Origin: an uncultured beta proteobacterium
GTDB lineage: Bacteria > Pseudomonadota > Gammaproteobacteria > Burkholderiales > Rhodocyclaceae
DNA: 5,106 bases
Assembly: GCA_903910495.1 (NCBI GenBank)
Contig: CAIVZW010000677.1
Location: 1 to 5,106 of the forward strand
Direction of reading: 5' to 3'
Part shown: positions 168 through 5,106 of the stretch, piece by piece
Layout of the letters: each line of letters begins with the position of its first letter
Position numbering within the stretch: the stretch's first letter is position 1
Translations under genes and position numbers: made by a program
Notes under the pieces: generated by a model
The model's database searches: none
What the model was told of the DNA's origin: nothing
Seen by the model: the letters and a program-made list of their open reading frames with translations, nothing else

Positions 168-222
168 ATATCTTCGACACAAATACACCGCAAAAGTTCT
201 CGTATAATTCGTGCCGGGTCAA
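1..222 (-). mobile_element. Partial IS630-like insertion sequence (one end inside the window)
   Basis: The transposase start at 167 is preceded by a short non-coding stretch up to the stop codon of the neighbouring gene (219-221). IS630 elements insert at TA and carry terminal inverted repeats just outside the transposase. A TA is present at 223-224, so the IS end may lie at 222, reading inward TTGACCCGGCACG. The other end is outside the window, so neither the inverted repeat nor the TA duplication can be confirmed, and the boundary is a guess within perhaps 30 bases. Confidence 0.5.
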
Positions 223-599
223 TAGTTTTGAAACCAAACACGCACGCCGTCGAATCCCTGACCATAGCGTCGTTCCCGGCGCCAACCGAGTCGAAGTAAC
301 GCCTGACCAACGCACTGCGGATGAGGTCGATCTCGATACTTCCCTGACAGGCGAGAAACCAATTCAGCCATCGACCATGGCCGGTTTCGGAGCTGTGACG
401 GTATCGTCCGCATGAGTTCTGAAATTTGATCTTCGAGTGGCTTTACCGACTTCGGCGACGGGGACAGACTGGCGAGTTCGAGTTGTAGTTTCTTGGTCGC
501 AATCTCCTTTTGCAGGCGGCGGCGCTCCTCACCTTCCGAGGCGGCTTCGGCTGCTTGTCGGTGCAACTCGGCCAGGTAACCGTTTATATGCTGGTTCAT
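219..599 (-). CDS. Small coiled-coil plus winged-helix-like protein of unknown function
   Basis: This 126-residue protein has an ATG at 597-599 and a strong Shine-Dalgarno (AAGGAGG on the minus strand, 608-614) spaced 8 bases, which fixes the start. Residues 1-70 are charged and helical with no glycine-rich breaks except SLSPSP at 45-50, consistent with a coiled coil. Residues 74-122 (PWSMAELVSRLSGKYRDRP, then VGQALLRLGWRRERRYG and GVRVW) look like a winged helix: two helices, a recognition-like helix and a basic wing. I recall similar small proteins next to primase-type genes in mobile elements but cannot name a family. It follows the primase-helicase by 40 bases, so is probably co-transcribed and may be a DNA-binding accessory to replication. 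The C-terminus (VWFQNY) lies at the presumed IS630 junction, so its last residues and stop may come from the insertion. Confidence 0.75.
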   Translation of the reverse strand: MNQHINGYLAELHRQAAEAASEGEERRRLQKEIATKKLQLELASLSPSPKSVKPLEDQISELMRTIPSQLRNRPWSMAELVSRLSGKYRDRPHPQCVGQALLRLGWRRERRYGQGFDGVRVWFQNY

Positions 600-639
600 T
601 GGGGTTTCCTCCTTGAATCACTGGTGGTGGCTGTAAATA

Positions 640-3444
640 TCATTGCGCTTCATCGAAGGCGAAGAGGTCAGGGCACGCGGAATCGTCGTCTTCTGGTGGG
701 TTTGGTGGATTTGAAGGACCTGTTTCCTTCCCTAGAGTATTTTTGTAAGTAATTTTTATTGCATCCTTGGCCGAGTCAGCCGAAACAGGCCCACCGAATC
801 CACCAAAGCCACCACCGCCCGGTACGACCACCACGACGCGCCAGAGGGCTGTATTCGACCGACCCTGCAACCGTTCAAAGCGAAAGCCATCAACAATCTT
901 GCCGATCCGCTTGCGTAGATACGCCGCCAGTATCTTGACGTTGAGAAACCCGCGCGGGTCCGCAGCGACTTCCTTGAGAACGTCCGCAAGGTTGCCACAC
1001 CCTATAACTTGATTCAGCGGCTGTGCAGTCGAGCCGTACTGACCGTGCCACTGTTGCGCCAGAAATGCCAACCGCAAGGCATCAGGATCGGTCGCCGCCG
1101 CTTCCGCGAGACGTGCCGTCGGGTCACACAAGCCCGGTATGCCCTGCTGGCTGAGCCAGACCACCGTCTGACGGATGAGATCATCCCACTGCTCAAAACT
1201 GGCAAGGCGGCCTGCCGCTGGCTTCGGGCGACCGGCGGCAATGTAGCCGGACAGGAGGGTCAACGCGGCGACGACCAGTCGCTGCCGATTACGAACGATG
1301 TAATCGAGCGGGTCAACTGCGAATTCACGCTTCCACACTTCGCTGGCCTCAAGCTGCGGGTCGATCCGGATGGTCAGCAAGCGCCGCACGATGTCGCCCA
1401 CAGGCGCGAGATTGTTACCGGTGATCAGCACCAGCATTCTGTTGTCGGCCTCGATCTCGGTATTCCCTCCAAGCAGGCGATCAGACCAGCGAGGTGAAGT
1501 CAAGAAGGCCGCAAGTACCGGTGATTTCAGTTGCGTTTCCATATTGTCGAAGATCACGACAGATTTACCCTTGGCGAGGGCGGTGGCAATTTTCTTGCGT
1601 GTTTCCTCGTCTTCGGTCGGGGGTGGCAATAGAGATTCGACTCGCCCGGTGCCGAGAGCAGCAATGCACTGCGCGAGTTTTGTCTTCCCTGACGCAGGCG
1701 TCGGAGCATCCAACCCAAAACCGGGCGCAGTGGGCAAGCAAGAGCGCACCACCGACGTCAGCATTGCCGCCAGTTGGCAGGATCGGCTTACGTCACCATC
1801 GAATGGGAAGTCTTTGACCGGCTCCCAAAGTTGGGCAAATGCGCTCTGAATGGCTGCAGTGTTCGGTTGCCTGTTTATGGGCAGAAAATGCGATTCACCG
1901 TCGATCAGCAGCAACAATCCGGTCTGGCTGTCATACCCCGGCGTGGAGATGATCCGGCCTTCATGGGTCATGGTTGGCGCAGTGATGACGCCCGCCAGTT
2001 CCCGGAAGGTGCCGTGTCCACCCCGGCTGAGAATCAGTTGTGCGATGGTGTCCGTCAGGTCAGTGGCCCGAAGCTCCTTGGCGCGCGAGTCGAAGCGGAC
2101 CAGGCTGCACGCACTACCCGCGAGATACTTGATCCGCGCTGGGTTCAATACTCGCGTCTGGCCGTCATGCTGAATGTCTAGCAGCGCCTGGCCGCGCTCA
2201 TAGATTTCACCCTGCTCGGAAAGATACTTCGACAGTTCATCCGTACAGCGCGCGGACTCGCCGGTAAAAATCTGGATGATCTTGGGCGGTTTTTTCAGGG
2301 TATAGCGGCAGCCACCATGAGCATGGCTGTAAATGTACGGATGCCCGCCATTTTTTAGGCTGATGAAGGCTACTCGATTGTCGTTACGGTATTCAGGTTC
2401 CAGCGGATCGTGGCAACGCTGTCCGTGATACTGGTCGGGGTAGGCGAGCAATTCGGCGATAGAGATTTCGGCCCCACCCTGCAAGGTAATCACAAAGTCA
2501 CCACCCAGCGTTTGCATTTCGGCGGCCTGCTGCACTGACTGACGGGCCTTGTCCGGATCGGCTCCGCGCTTGACCAGATCGCCGGTTCGACGCTCTACCC
2601 ATTCAGCGCGAACACGCTGACGTTCGACCTCAACATCCGCCTTGGCTTGCTGCACCAGCTTATGAATTGCGTCCTCGTCTTGCCGGCTCAATGTAGGCAA
2701 ATGGTGGGCATCTACCATCTCCAGATAGCCTTCGACGAACTTACAGGACATATCCCGCTGTCCGAGCGGCGGCATGCATATCGCACCACCAACAAAGTCG
2801 AGCCGTTCGGGTTGCCAGACGCTGGTATCCACTGTGCAACGTTTAAGCAAAGTTCCTGCTGACGAAATGTCGTAGTAACCGTTACCGAACAGCCACAGTT
2901 GGGCTTCGATAGCCTGACCAATAGCCGGTATGAGGCTTGCATCCGACACCAACGCATAGGCACGCTGATTTACCATCGCGCGCAAGCATGCGCCGGTCTC
3001 TACGTGGTAGAGGTTGCTCGAACTGGACGGGCGCACCAGCATATTGACGCCTTCTAAGAAACCAACCGTCTCCCAAAGAAAATGCGCGAATGTGTTTTCG
3101 AATTCTTGCCCGTTGTCGTTATCGAGCATAAGAATACCCGGCCCCTTTGACCAGCCGAAATAGTTACGGGTCCGCGCAATGGCATCGGGATGACGCGCTA
3201 GGTCTTCCTCACGAACGAGACTGCCACCGGGTTGATCAGGAACGCCATAGGTGAATGCAACGTCTGGCGTAGCAGCTTCAAGGTGCAGAGAAAGGCCGTG
3301 AAGATCAGCAACTGATTCAATCGCATACGTGCCATGACTGAGATGCGCCGCAGCCTTTTTCTGGATCGAACCGGAGTCGTTGATGGAGAGTATTTTGGTC
3401 AGAGGGCCATGGCCGCAGGTGATCCGGGTAAATGAGATGGTCAT
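640..3444 (-). CDS. Primase-helicase replication protein (AEP-like N-terminus plus AAA+/SF3-like ATPase)
   Basis: This 934-residue protein is the likely replication initiator of the element. Residues 100-225 resemble the primase-polymerase core of mobile-element proteins: acidic motif GILMLDND (D108, D110), RPSSSSNLY (138-146), and RCTVDTSVWQPERLDF (202-217; D206 a third acidic candidate). R161 (NQRAY) sits where I expect the motif II histidine, so primase activity may be altered or lost. Residues 250-312 are charged and helical; HPYIYSHAHGGCRYTL (368-383) is a family hallmark. The ATPase has a Walker A-like TPASGKT (582-588; the usual first Gly is Pro), Walker B-like SVVIFDN (628-634), sensor LITGNN (673-678) and arginines R687/R688. 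The tail after 870 is low complexity, Gly-rich then Pro-rich, encoded by an inverted repeat. The ATG at 3442-3444 overlaps the upstream stop as ATGA, with AGGAG at 3454-3458 on the minus strand, suggesting translational coupling. Family assignment is by motif recognition. Confidence 0.85.
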   Translation of the reverse strand: MTISFTRITCGHGPLTKILSINDSGSIQKKAAAHLSHGTYAIESVADLHGLSLHLEAATPDVAFTYGVPDQPGGSLVREEDLARHPDAIARTRNYFGWSKGPGILMLDNDNGQEFENTFAHFLWETVGFLEGVNMLVRPSSSSNLYHVETGACLRAMVNQRAYALVSDASLIPAIGQAIEAQLWLFGNGYYDISSAGTLLKRCTVDTSVWQPERLDFVGGAICMPPLGQRDMSCKFVEGYLEMVDAHHLPTLSRQDEDAIHKLVQQAKADVEVERQRVRAEWVERRTGDLVKRGADPDKARQSVQQAAEMQTLGGDFVITLQGGAEISIAELLAYPDQYHGQRCHDPLEPEYRNDNRVAFISLKNGGHPYIYSHAHGGCRYTLKKPPKIIQIFTGESARCTDELSKYLSEQGEIYERGQALLDIQHDGQTRVLNPARIKYLAGSACSLVRFDSRAKELRATDLTDTIAQLILSRGGHGTFRELAGVITAPTMTHEGRIISTPGYDSQTGLLLLIDGESHFLPINRQPNTAAIQSAFAQLWEPVKDFPFDGDVSRSCQLAAMLTSVVRSCLPTAPGFGLDAPTPASGKTKLAQCIAALGTGRVESLLPPPTEDEETRKKIATALAKGKSVVIFDNMETQLKSPVLAAFLTSPRWSDRLLGGNTEIEADNRMLVLITGNNLAPVGDIVRRLLTIRIDPQLEASEVWKREFAVDPLDYIVRNRQRLVVAALTLLSGYIAAGRPKPAAGRLASFEQWDDLIRQTVVWLSQQGIPGLCDPTARLAEAAATDPDALRLAFLAQQWHGQYGSTAQPLNQVIGCGNLADVLKEVAADPRGFLNVKILAAYLRKRIGKIVDGFRFERLQGRSNTALWRVVVVVPGGGGFGGFGGPVSADSAKDAIKITYKNTLGKETGPSNPPNPPEDDDSACPDLFAFDEAQ
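695..813. repeat. Pair of 32-bp inverted repeats built of 9-bp units around an AT-rich spacer
   Basis: The arm at 695-726 and the reverse complement of 782-813 match at 27 of 32 positions, with a 55-base spacer. Each arm is three 9-bp units. On the plus strand these are GGTGGGTTT (695-703), GGTGGATTT (704-712) and a diverged unit (713-721). On the minus strand they are GGTGGCTTT (813-805), GGTGGATTC (804-796) and GGTGGGCCT (795-787). Each arm ends in the shared TGTTTC. The spacer core 735-761 is almost all A/T. The whole structure lies in the last 60 codons of the primase-helicase gene: one arm encodes residues 878-888 (GGFGGFGGPVS), the other 907-917 (ETGPSNPPNPP). Further GGTGG copies flank it at 623-630 (plus) and 812-816 (minus). 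The sense-strand RNA could form a long stem with 27 Watson-Crick and two G-U pairs. Function is not shown; an origin or initiator-binding site is the main hypothesis. Confidence 0.85.
735..761. other. AT-rich core between the inverted repeat arms
   Basis: This short stretch is dominated by runs of T and A (TATTTTTGT, AATTTTTATT) inside an otherwise GC-rich gene, and encodes residues around IKITYKNTL. Its position exactly between two iteron-like arms is what one expects of a DNA-unwinding region in a replication origin. That function is inference; an AT-rich Lys/Ile/Tyr-coding patch could occur without it. Confidence 0.4.
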
Positions 3445-3953
3445 GACCGGACACTCCTATGGAACGACTGAATTTTTCCTATCTCAGCGAGCAGCAGTTG
3501 CGGCAGACAGCATGGCCGAACCATTACATGGGTAGAAGCTGCTTGCTTTGCGCTATACCAGAACTCATTCGATGGCATACCTGGTGCAAAGGCAATAACG
3601 ACGCGAATACCCATCGCCAGTGTCCCACCAATCTCAATCAAAGTGCCATAACAGTCAATCGCCGTGATGTAAGCAAAAACTAGATCAGCCTTGGCGAGAG
3701 CCTGCGTGTTGTTGTCGATTACGGCCTGCTGATCGAAGTTCTGGTCAAAGGAAGAATCATCGCCCACAGCACCATGGCGATTCGGCCCGTGGTTGCCGCC
3801 ATGGTTTGATCCGACGAAGAATGGGCCGACGTAATCGAAGGATTTCGTTTTGATTGGCCCATCACCCCATAGATGACCGCGCAATCCAGGCACAAGACCG
3901 TGACGCCAATCGTTCTTGCCGATCTTGCCGGCAAGGTAGATGCGCGGACTCAT
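3441..3953 (-). CDS. Nucleoside 2-deoxyribosyltransferase-like protein with His-Gly-rich insertion
   Basis: This 170-residue protein begins with RIYLAGKIG (4-12), the first strand and loop typical of the nucleoside 2-deoxyribosyltransferase / TIR-like Rossmann superfamily. It continues with AKADLVFAYI (87-96; D90) and IDCYGTLIEIGGTLAMG (99-115; D100, E107). In characterised family members equivalent acidic residues bind the sugar and a Glu is the nucleophile that cleaves the N-glycosidic bond, so D90/D100/E107 are the candidate catalytic set. Between them lies a Gly/His/Asn-rich stretch (44-66) with three HG dipeptides (51, 55, 60), possibly a metal- or base-binding loop. The start overlaps the AlpA stop as ATGA, with AGGAGAG at 3958-3964 (minus strand) upstream; its own stop overlaps the primase-helicase start. 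It may act in nucleotide metabolism, host interference or defence; the sequence does not decide which. It could be a non-catalytic nucleotide sensor. Confidence 0.75.
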   Translation of the reverse strand: MSPRIYLAGKIGKNDWRHGLVPGLRGHLWGDGPIKTKSFDYVGPFFVGSNHGGNHGPNRHGAVGDDSSFDQNFDQQAVIDNNTQALAKADLVFAYITAIDCYGTLIEIGGTLAMGIRVVIAFAPGMPSNEFWYSAKQAASTHVMVRPCCLPQLLLAEIGKIQSFHRSVRS

Positions 3954-4303
3954 TTCGCTCTCCTGTCGGGGGCATCGCGGTGATCAGGCGGTGGGTTGTG
4001 GGCTTCGAGGTGATCAGGCGGTTGGTTGGGGGCGGCTACCCAAGAACCGTCCGCCCACGCTTTAAGGTCGCAACGTTTCCATGCCGTCACGCCAGTTGAC
4101 AACCGACATGGTGGGGGAAATGTTCCTTTCGCTACCCAGTCCCACAATGCGCCGTGGCTTACTGGAAAAACGTCTGAACGGATTTGTTTTTCACGAACAA
4201 AAAGTGGAAAATCCGCCCATTCGTCTGGGGGTGTGGAAGGTACTAGGGATTTTGCTCCGCCAAGAAAATGGCCGGCTTCGCGAGATAAAATATTTTTTGA
4301 CAT
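3950..4303 (-). CDS. AlpA-type helix-turn-helix regulator / excisionase
   Basis: This 117-residue protein has a MerR-superfamily AlpA-like core at about 33-86. FPVSHGALWDWVAKGTFPPP (46-65) is the HTH and the start of the wing, followed by CRLSTGVTAWKRCDLKAWAD (66-85), matching the AlpA pattern of a helix pair, G-x-FP-x-P, then W...DL..W. AlpA proteins of P4-like elements act as excisionases or activators of integrase, which fits a position just after the integrase. The 32-residue N-terminal extension is longer than in phage AlpA (about 70 residues in total). The tail after 91 is Pro/Asp/His-rich and built from a 30-bp DNA repeat. I chose the ATG at 4301-4303 because GGAG lies 7 bases upstream; an in-frame GTG at 4352-4354 would add 17 residues but lies in a hairpin and lacks a clear ribosome site. 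First gene of the leftward operon. Confidence 0.8.
   Translation of the reverse strand: MSKNILSREAGHFLGGAKSLVPSTPPDEWADFPLFVREKQIRSDVFPVSHGALWDWVAKGTFPPPCRLSTGVTAWKRCDLKAWADGSWVAAPNQPPDHLEAHNPPPDHRDAPDRRAK
3979..4033. repeat. Tandem 30-bp direct repeat in the tail of the AlpA-like gene
   Basis: Positions 3979-4003 and 4009-4033 match at 23 of 25 bases with a period of exactly 30 bp (10 codons). They encode the related segments PPDHLEAHN and PPDHRDAP. Each copy carries a TGATCA palindrome (3981-3986 and 4011-4016), so the palindromes lie on the same face of the helix. A degenerate third half-unit continues toward 3965, next to the ribosome site of the following gene. It may be a recent coding duplication or a protein-binding array. 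Confidence 0.8.
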
Positions 4304-4309
4304 GTGAAG
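4304..4309 (-). promoter_or_regulatory. 3' half of a stem closing on the AlpA start codon
   Basis: On the minus strand CTTCAC directly before the ATG is the perfect complement of GTGAAG at 4349-4354. The pair would enclose a 39-base loop that contains the Shine-Dalgarno (4311-4314) and a smaller hairpin at 4332-4346. Such a stem could modulate initiation at the AlpA-like gene. Six base pairs is modest, so this is suggestive only. Confidence 0.4.
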
Positions 4310-4310
4310 G

Positions 4311-4314
4311 CTCC
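4311..4314 (-). promoter_or_regulatory. Ribosome binding site deciding the AlpA start
   Basis: GGAG on the minus strand lies 7 bases before the ATG at 4303 and is the only good ribosome site for this reading frame. It supports the 117-residue form over the longer frame opening at 4354. Confidence 0.6.
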
Positions 4315-4331
4315 AAAAACAAAACTGGATA

Positions 4332-4346
4332 ACCCCATCTCGGGGT
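4332..4346 (-). other. Small leader hairpin (ACCCC / GGGGT)
   Basis: A perfect 5-bp stem with a 5-base loop in the leader RNA, nested inside the possible 4304-4354 stem. A T-rich stretch (TTTTGTTTTT on the minus strand) follows about ten bases later. That gap makes a classic intrinsic terminator unlikely, but attenuation or a structured leader is possible. Confidence 0.4.
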
Positions 4347-4369
4347 GTCTTCACAACGTCCGGTCGGCA

Positions 4370-4533: not shown

Positions 4534-5106
4534 TTACGCCGCGCCCCGCAGCGGAACGACATTGAACGGCTTGCCCTGCTCAACTGCAAGGAGCTTACTC
4601 TCCCACAACTCCATCGCAGATCTACGCTCGTCGAGGTAATCGTAAGTGTCATACACATCATTGATACCCGGCAAACGATGATTGAGGCAACGCTCAGCGA
4701 TATGCGGCTTTACCCCAAGCATCGCTAGATGCGTTCTGGCCGTTCGCCTCAGGTCGTGGATCGTGAAATGTTCAAGGCTATGCTCAATCTGGTTCAACGC
4801 CCAGTTCAGAGTCTCCACGGCAAGGTGAGGTTTGGTGCCTCGCCGCTTGGCCGGAAAAACGTAGTCACTGCCGCAACCAATCAGTTTCAACTCAGTCAGC
4901 CACTCCACGGCAGCAGGAGATAACGGCACCGTGAAGCCTTTGCCGCCTTCCTTATCCCCGGTTTTTTGCCGTTCTGCTGGCACAGTCCACCGCCCATTCT
5001 CAAGGTCAAACTCAGACCAAGGGGCTTCAATCAACTCGGACTTACGAACCGCAGTAAGGAGGAGCAACCGCACCGCCAGCGCGTAGGGGCGAAATACAGG
5101 ACCGGC
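4534..5106 (-). CDS. Tyrosine integrase, P4/phage type, C-terminal half (N-terminus outside window)
   Basis: The visible 190 codons are the catalytic domain of a tyrosine recombinase that integrates and excises the element by strand exchange at att sites. Numbering from the window edge, the catalytic set is complete: R21 in LLLLTAVRKSEL, a candidate lysine K48 in the beta-hairpin (ERQKTG), H117 and R120 in HDLRR, H143 in CLNH and the nucleophile Y152 in VYDTYDYLDERR. The ending YLDERRSAMELWESKL is typical of P4-like island integrases, which are usually about 400 residues, so roughly half is missing to the right. The stop is TAA at 4534-4536. The frame is open to the right edge; a GTG at 5071-5073 is internal, not the start. 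In such islands the integrase usually lies next to one attachment site, often a tRNA gene, which would be to the right of this window. Confidence 0.92.
   Translation of the reverse strand, partial: AGPVFRPYALAVRLLLLTAVRKSELIEAPWSEFDLENGRWTVPAERQKTGDKEGGKGFTVPLSPAAVEWLTELKLIGCGSDYVFPAKRRGTKPHLAVETLNWALNQIEHSLEHFTIHDLRRTARTHLAMLGVKPHIAERCLNHRLPGINDVYDTYDYLDERRSAMELWESKLLAVEQGKPFNVVPLRGAA

Follow-up and report, generated by a model that had tools for sequence, protein, structure and literature searches.

A putative replication origin of inverted 9-bp iterons inside the primase-helicase gene of an integrative element

The array at the end of the primase-helicase gene

We analysed a 5,106-nt stretch of contig CAIVZW010000677.1 (GCA_903910495.1), from an uncultured beta proteobacterium of the Rhodocyclaceae, hereafter called the window, in which all six open reading frames (ORFs) lie on the minus strand. 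One of them encodes a primase-helicase, and the last 60 codons of this gene (640–3444) hold two inverted arms, 694–726 and 782–814, of 33 nt each, 85% complementary and 55 nt apart, composed of GGTGGNTTY-type units of 9 nt and carrying GTTTC on the inner side of both arms. From sequence comparison, we consider it very probable that this array is the origin from which an integrative element replicates, placed inside the gene of its own initiator. The features concerned are the following, with the units read on the G-rich strand of each arm:

782–814, minus strand: iteron arm A, with GGTGGCTTT (805–813), GGTGGATTC (796–804) and GGTGGGCCT (787–795), then GTTTC (782–786)
694–726, plus strand: iteron arm B, inverted, with GGTGGGTTT (695–703), GGTGGATTT (704–712) and GAAGGACCT (713–721, degenerate), then GTTTC (722–726)
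727–781, no strand: spacer, 60% AT (79% AT in 733–765), presumed melting region
623–632, plus strand: outlying GGTGGTGGCT, exact inverted copy of 807–816, role unproven
640–3444, minus strand: primase-helicase of 934 residues (P0001), presumed replication initiator, from PHROG matches and fold likeness
826–1116, minus strand: C-terminal winged-helix-like domain, about residues 777–873, presumed iteron reader
643–819, minus strand: array-coded tail, residues 876–934, GGFGGFGG...NPPNPP, predicted to be disordered (predicted local distance difference test, pLDDT, below 50)

An earlier description made from the letters of the window (the sequence-only reading) had proposed two inverted arms of 9-bp units, and we confirmed them; the 27/32 arm identity that it gave is the same match as that of the 33-nt arms, one base shorter. 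It had counted three units in each arm, which holds for 782–814, whereas the innermost unit of 694–726 is degenerate. The AT-rich core that it placed between the arms was found again, since the most AT-rich 20-mers of the window (18 of 20 A/T) start at 738–741, within the spacer. The outlying copies of GGTGGTGGCT at 623–632 (plus) and 807–816 (minus) are exact, although the former may be due to chance, and GGFGGFGG and NPPNPP are read in one frame, in this order, the gene being on the minus strand. Near-identity DNA searches of plasmids and phages, and a search for the array in one genome, gave no match.

Arrays across homologous and other loci

A protein search, in which 7,992 candidates were scored, gave 464 relatives of the primase-helicase, of which 120 were kept. 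The loci comprised 80 from genomes (the best 80 of 151 relatives found) and 70 from viruses, making 150 with the window and without L107, which was excluded because its match spans the N-terminal part only. Modelled symmetrically, as a pair of inverted blocks with 3 x 9 nt each, 80 of the 150 loci (window included) scored at least 42, versus 24 of 2,771 control windows taken from these loci; with the blocks in direct orientation, 18 loci and 43 controls reached this score. The window itself scores 45 out of 54; 8 of the controls reach 44 and 2 reach 46. With the highest-scoring inverted repeat close to the 3' end as the measure, 75/150 loci versus 39/3,341 control windows scored at least 14, a count in which the range set for the window split its own array. 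The arrays have a sharp period of 9, with a consensus of at least 0.8 in 64 of the 150 loci, compared with 11 at period 6 and 0–4 at periods 7, 8, 10, 11 and 12. We added 84 loci, from five plasmids and from another scan of viruses (of 229 relatives the best 80, including one that was already present), some of them on contigs already in the first set; here a consensus of at least 0.8 was found in 49 at period 9 and in 0–6 at periods 7, 8, 10 and 11.

From these 234 loci we retained 83 non-redundant elements with a score of at least 44, dropping as copies the rows with four or fewer differences over both arms. This selection demands agreement within an element and no particular word, and the elements present 66 distinct consensus units (rotations and strands collapsed), the commonest of which, AAACCCACC, occurs 10 times. 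Their spacers, of 24–148 nt, have a mean AT content of 53.7% versus 41.3% in the flanks, and are the more AT-rich in 78/83 elements. Small palindromes inside the arms show no excess (3.49 versus 3.44 in shuffled sequences). The motif TTTC is present in 75/166 inner flanks versus 24/166 outer ones (inner 24 nt, both arms), and in L052 a 149-nt inverted repeat around the 3' end of the gene holds array units more than once per side.

Measured from within the C-terminal domain, the array lies after the stop codon in 60 of the 83 elements (median 12 nt), across it in 11 and inside the gene in 12. The location described for origins of Staphylococcus aureus pathogenicity islands (SaPI) and other phage-inducible chromosomal islands (PICI), immediately 3' of the initiator gene or at its end, is that of the window array and of the 83-element set. 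Since 9 bp correspond to three codons, a translated array reads as tripeptide repeats: GGFGGFGG...NPPNPP in the window and L001, KPTTHTKPTT...GGFGGIGG in L031, NGFNGYNGF...NPLNPLNP in L058, AGVAGVAGV...TPATPATPAT in L136 and AGDAGDAGD...HLHHLHHL in L131. Among the 120 kept relatives, Gly-rich and Pro-rich tail repeats occur in both orders, and other frames are also used. On a 73-row tree, from which L181 was left out for its very long branch, the label 'inside' needs at least six changes, gains or losses (6–6 over bootstraps), and arm order by base composition needs three, the C-rich arm being first in 6 of the 73 rows. Words, frames, order and coding status change while complementarity, period and spacing persist, which shows selection on the nucleic acid. 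The homologues decide at which level selection acts: a nucleic-acid function fits them and a protein function does not. The sequence-only reading would have been contradicted by homologues that keep the Gly-rich and Pro-rich tails and lose the DNA repeats; instead, the tripeptides change while the array stays. In the window, where the gene runs on through the putative origin, this would be translated as a disordered tail.

Several other tails were noticed. L018, P0053, P0070, P0091 and P0101 have a Cys-containing C-terminal piece (C..C.NF...C) beyond an array-like stretch, so that the array may sit between two domains there. A short VARVA-type tail repeat, with no second arm scored, is found in L009, L012, L017, L020–L024, L029, L030 and L033 (mostly Rhodoferax, Polaromonas and Limnohabitans), and L015/L016 combine such a tail with a separate noncoding array of another unit. 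The expectation that tails of KTDKTD/VSFVSF type occur in other primases was not supported: one pattern gave two hits, with no replication gene among the listed ORFs within 900 nt and no family search made.

Arrays were also retrieved from DNA patterns without protein input. Three patterns gave 11, 7 and 1 viral stretches, two exact-unit patterns had no match in viral DNA, and in 17 of the 19 cases the array is found where a gene for a primase or helicase ends (3'), 11 of these 17 being outside the homology set. Five are in the tails of one DNA-primase PHROG type (L236; L235, L237 and L243, 74–94% to L236; L242, 43%); for L235, L236 and L242, Pfam gave only Toprim, AAA or zinc-ribbon matches below cut-off, and L237 was placed by BLASTP alone. 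The arrays of L240, L244 and L245 follow one 669-residue protein, 100% identical, with AAA_25 above cut-off and helix-turn-helix (HTH) and Toprim below. That of L249 follows a Prim-Pol/D5_N protein, that of L239 a 67-residue end matching a PHROG DNA helicase, and that of L238 a truncated helicase-like ORF with a PHROG that the primase-helicase family of the window matches too. Those of L091, L241, L248, L250, L253 and L254 follow proteins of the window family or near kin, on contigs already in the homology set. L252 is cut at a contig edge. A BLASTP comparison of P0001 and L103 with L236, L240, L242 and L249 gave no hit under E 0.1.

The presumed initiator, its surroundings and plasmid relatives

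Residues 1–353 of the primase-helicase match a PHROG DNA primase family, and residues 433–871 match PHROG families of unknown function and of DNA polymerase/primase. There was no Pfam match at E <= 0.1, and therefore no D5_N or DUF927 signature, which SaPI/PICI initiators have; NCBIfam gave no match at E <= 0.01, PADLOC nothing for this protein, and a profile search of the sequences of solved structures nothing useful. The predicted fold resembles those of PriRep1, the SaPI5 primase-helicase and D5/PrimPol-type helicases.

The similarity of the units tracks the identity of the C-terminal domain with the helicase allowed for (partial rank r 0.125, permutation p 0.0065; 74 of the 83 elements, those with both regions aligned), and the helicase adds nothing given the C-terminal domain (0.015). 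The correlation amounts to 0.44 at 50–90% helicase identity, 0.12 at 35–50% and nil below 35%. Among 13 sliding segments, the C-terminal ones predict the unit best, with 0.148 over all pairs (835–872) and, in close pairs, 0.463 for segment 805–864 compared with 0.26–0.42 for the others. This correlation between sequences is modest and is not proof of contact.

Relatives were also found on plasmids. RepA of Streptomyces pWTY27 matches residues 401–868 at 31.0%. In the pWTY27 report, the basic replication locus consists of repAB plus an adjacent iteron, RepA footprints cover 405–447 and 462–509 with an unprotected loop, and repeats of 8 and 7 bp are listed by the authors, who prefer recognition of a stem-loop (PMC3583192). 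In our own reading, the footprints hold GTGGGAA at 9-bp spacing, two per side and inverted, then AACC. The Psychrobacter plasmid pA32H2 (6.5 kb) encodes a full-length relative (30.7% over 92%), whose gene is followed by three 10-nt units per side (fraction 0.88). Plasmid pMNOD06 scores 46 versus a control maximum of 40, and pA17P3 (41 versus 37) and pCM32 (40 versus 39) are both weak, with 16–20 control windows each.

The remaining genes of the window are the following, the deoxyribosyltransferase-like gene overlapping the start of the primase-helicase gene by 4 nt:

4534–5106, minus strand: tyrosine integrase, cut by the window edge
3950–4354, minus strand: AlpA, weak match
3441–3953, minus strand: nucleoside 2-deoxyribosyltransferase, weak match
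219–599, minus strand: ORF of 126 residues
3–188, minus strand: small protein, HTH matches below cut-off

Origin model, alternatives and known systems

In the window and its family we observe the array, its AT-rich centre, the conservation at the nucleic acid level with a changing unit and the position at the gene end, together with a SaPI-like predicted fold. The proposal of the sequence-only reading that this is an origin or initiator-binding site within the initiator gene is strongly supported by the changing units, frames and order, the AT-rich spacer, the 3' position, the SaPI-like layout and the footprint of a relative. We propose that the C-terminal winged-helix-like domain of the primase-helicase would recognise both sets of iterons (about three of 9 bp in each, the sets being inverted), that the protein would be bound on both sides, probably as two hexamers, and that the bound protein would melt the AT-rich spacer, load itself and prime replication. 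A wider reading, which we judge evenly poised between right and wrong, is that one widespread design (3+3 inverted 9-bp iterons around AT-rich DNA) is shared by several kinds of primase-helicase (the window family, DNA-primase/AAA, AAA_25 and Prim-Pol/D5_N, the first of which shows no detectable BLASTP similarity to the other three), the word being a fast-changing address read by the C-terminal winged helix, and that in the window family the array passed into or out of coding sequence at least six times. On this reading, a 9-bp step, which in B-DNA amounts to about -51 degrees and is close to one sixth of a turn, might be taken by each of three neighbouring protomers of a hexamer.

Several observations weigh against this interpretation. 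Seventy of the 150 loci fall below the array threshold; when the search range was lengthened by 50 nt and the window excluded, 68/149 did. The sequence-only reading would have been contradicted if most homologues lacked the second arm; 80 of 150 keep both arms, so this did not occur, but the 70 below threshold qualify that outcome. Eight of the 68 have less than 200 nt of 3' DNA, and a wider search, made without a control, found arrays of period 8–10 (fraction at least 0.80) in 7 of the 60 others, four of them 428–766 nt past the match end; most loci below threshold stay unexplained. L046 has a single arm at the gene end (about 65 nt past the match), to which an inverted copy 2.7 kb upstream corresponds (22/27); in L051 the single arm lies at about 98 nt and the inverted copy 1.2 kb downstream (23/27). 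These are possibly split origins; one-armed arrays as a class show no clear excess (score at least 24 in 3/60 versus 26/1,960). On the contig that carries both L251 and L086, the full array (L251, 10100–10193) is 1.35 kb upstream of L086, the gene of the family, and no array was found at the 3' end of L086. Among plasmids, pWTY27, with two units per side, scores 39 in the three-unit test, below the control maximum of 41 (11 windows), so that its likeness lies in the footprint reading and not in the score, and pA32H2 reaches 36 at period 9 versus a control maximum of 37. The correlation between C-terminal domain and unit is weak and is lost below 35% helicase identity, and the C-terminal domain alone had no Foldseek match at E <= 0.001. 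Finally, the window is one partial element whose ends lie outside it. PICI are phage-inducible and carry att sites, a master repressor and genes for phage interference; the window has an integrase and a weak AlpA match only.

Among other explanations, we regard it as improbable that a DNA hairpin or cruciform is what the initiator recognises, instead of or besides linear iterons. The authors of the pWTY27 study proposed stem-loop recognition (PMC3583192). In our elements, paired units are more alike (0.845) than unpaired ones between arms (0.812) or units within an arm (0.810; 56 elements), the paired order beats swaps 1/2, 2/3 and 1/3 by 36:6, 27:12 and 28:9 (83 elements, the rest being ties), and the flanks just inside the arms match more within an element than between elements (0.451 versus 0.308, 12 nt). 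A hairpin or position-specific contacts may therefore add to the function. Nevertheless, position-specific contacts or arm homogenisation would equally give the paired excess, the direct 9-nt repetition within the arms is needed for iterons and not for a hairpin, and spacers of such length should hinder extrusion. A site at which the initiator controls copy number, incompatibility, partition or its own expression, with replication starting elsewhere, is a quite unlikely alternative, even though plasmid iterons often serve both replication start and copy control and L046 and L051 have single arms kilobases apart. The AT-rich spacers speak against it, as do the reduced plasmid maintenance on deletion of a PICI ori (PMC6092414) and the inclusion of the iteron in the replication locus of pWTY27 (PMC3583192).

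The sequence-only reading had leaned slightly towards an RNA role, a lean that we did not retain. A structured 3' element of the primase-helicase mRNA (a hairpin for termination, stability or translation control) would agree with the position at the gene end and with the strong fold of the sense RNA (610–840, minus strand; z = -3.09, 0/200 shuffles equally stable), but is very unlikely: 50 of the arm mismatches in the 83 elements would be G-U in the sense RNA and 51 A-C, an equality that does not favour sense-RNA pairing, and Rfam has no match in the window at gathering scores, and on these grounds the RNA reading was rejected. DNA is indicated by the repetition of units, by the AT-rich centre and by the relative with a published footprint, and the arms are kilobases apart in L046 and L051, or upstream of the gene in L251/L086. 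A protein-level feature, in which Gly-rich and Pro-rich tails are selected and the DNA repeat is a by-product, is scarcely credible. The order Gly-rich first, Pro-rich second is kept in P0002–P0023 (those with the tail listed); still, most arrays follow the stop codon, those inside genes encode other tripeptides in other frames and orders, and the tail is predicted to be disordered. The differing frames and order and the noncoding copies led us to reject this reading.

The origin proposed here has parallels in known systems. The origin of a PICI directly follows the 3' end of the initiator gene and in every case has an AT-rich region between two sets of iterons; a replicon test has been published for that of EcCICFT073 (PMC6092414). 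The window shares this layout and a predicted fold near PriRep1 and the SaPI5 primase-helicase; it differs in the absence of a D5_N or DUF927 match in P0001 and in that the array is inside the gene in 12/83 elements (window included). In its own family each set holds about three units of 9 bp and the sets are inverted, a design that may set it apart from PICI. The O protein of lambda is not known as a helicase, nor is the AT tract there known to lie between inverted sets. The lambda ori, iterons plus an AT-rich region, lies in the middle of gene O, that is, likewise inside the gene of its initiator, with four longer iterons that are each an inverted repeat (PMC7466680); an origin within an initiator gene is thus not new in itself. 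The Cch2 helicase of the staphylococcal cassette chromosome SCCmec binds repeats downstream of its own gene through its C-terminal domain, as we propose here, but these are three 5-nt iterons, the inverted repeats are dispensable for binding and the origin is only putative (PMC7581432). RepA of pWTY27, a homologue, protects two stretches next to its own gene (PMC3583192), in which we read inverted units at 9-bp spacing; this system differs in that its units are noncoding, with two clear ones per side, and in the presence of a separate primase-polymerase protein, RepB.

In the literature searched, to which our statement is confined, we found no description of an origin of the window family. The points that seem to be new there are an inverted 9-bp design that is fixed while its word varies, the association of this design with several helicase types and its repeated moves into or out of coding sequence. 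To our knowledge, origins have been mapped for only a minority of integrative elements and satellites, and if the 9-bp inverted array marks them generally, origins and initiators of many elements could be matched to each other from their sequences alone. If the model is true, the 66 unit types and their C-terminal domains would constitute a data set for a recognition code of winged helices, and tripeptide tails such as GGFGGF...NPPNPP, TPATPAT and HLHHLHHL would be explained as translated origin DNA and not by a protein function.

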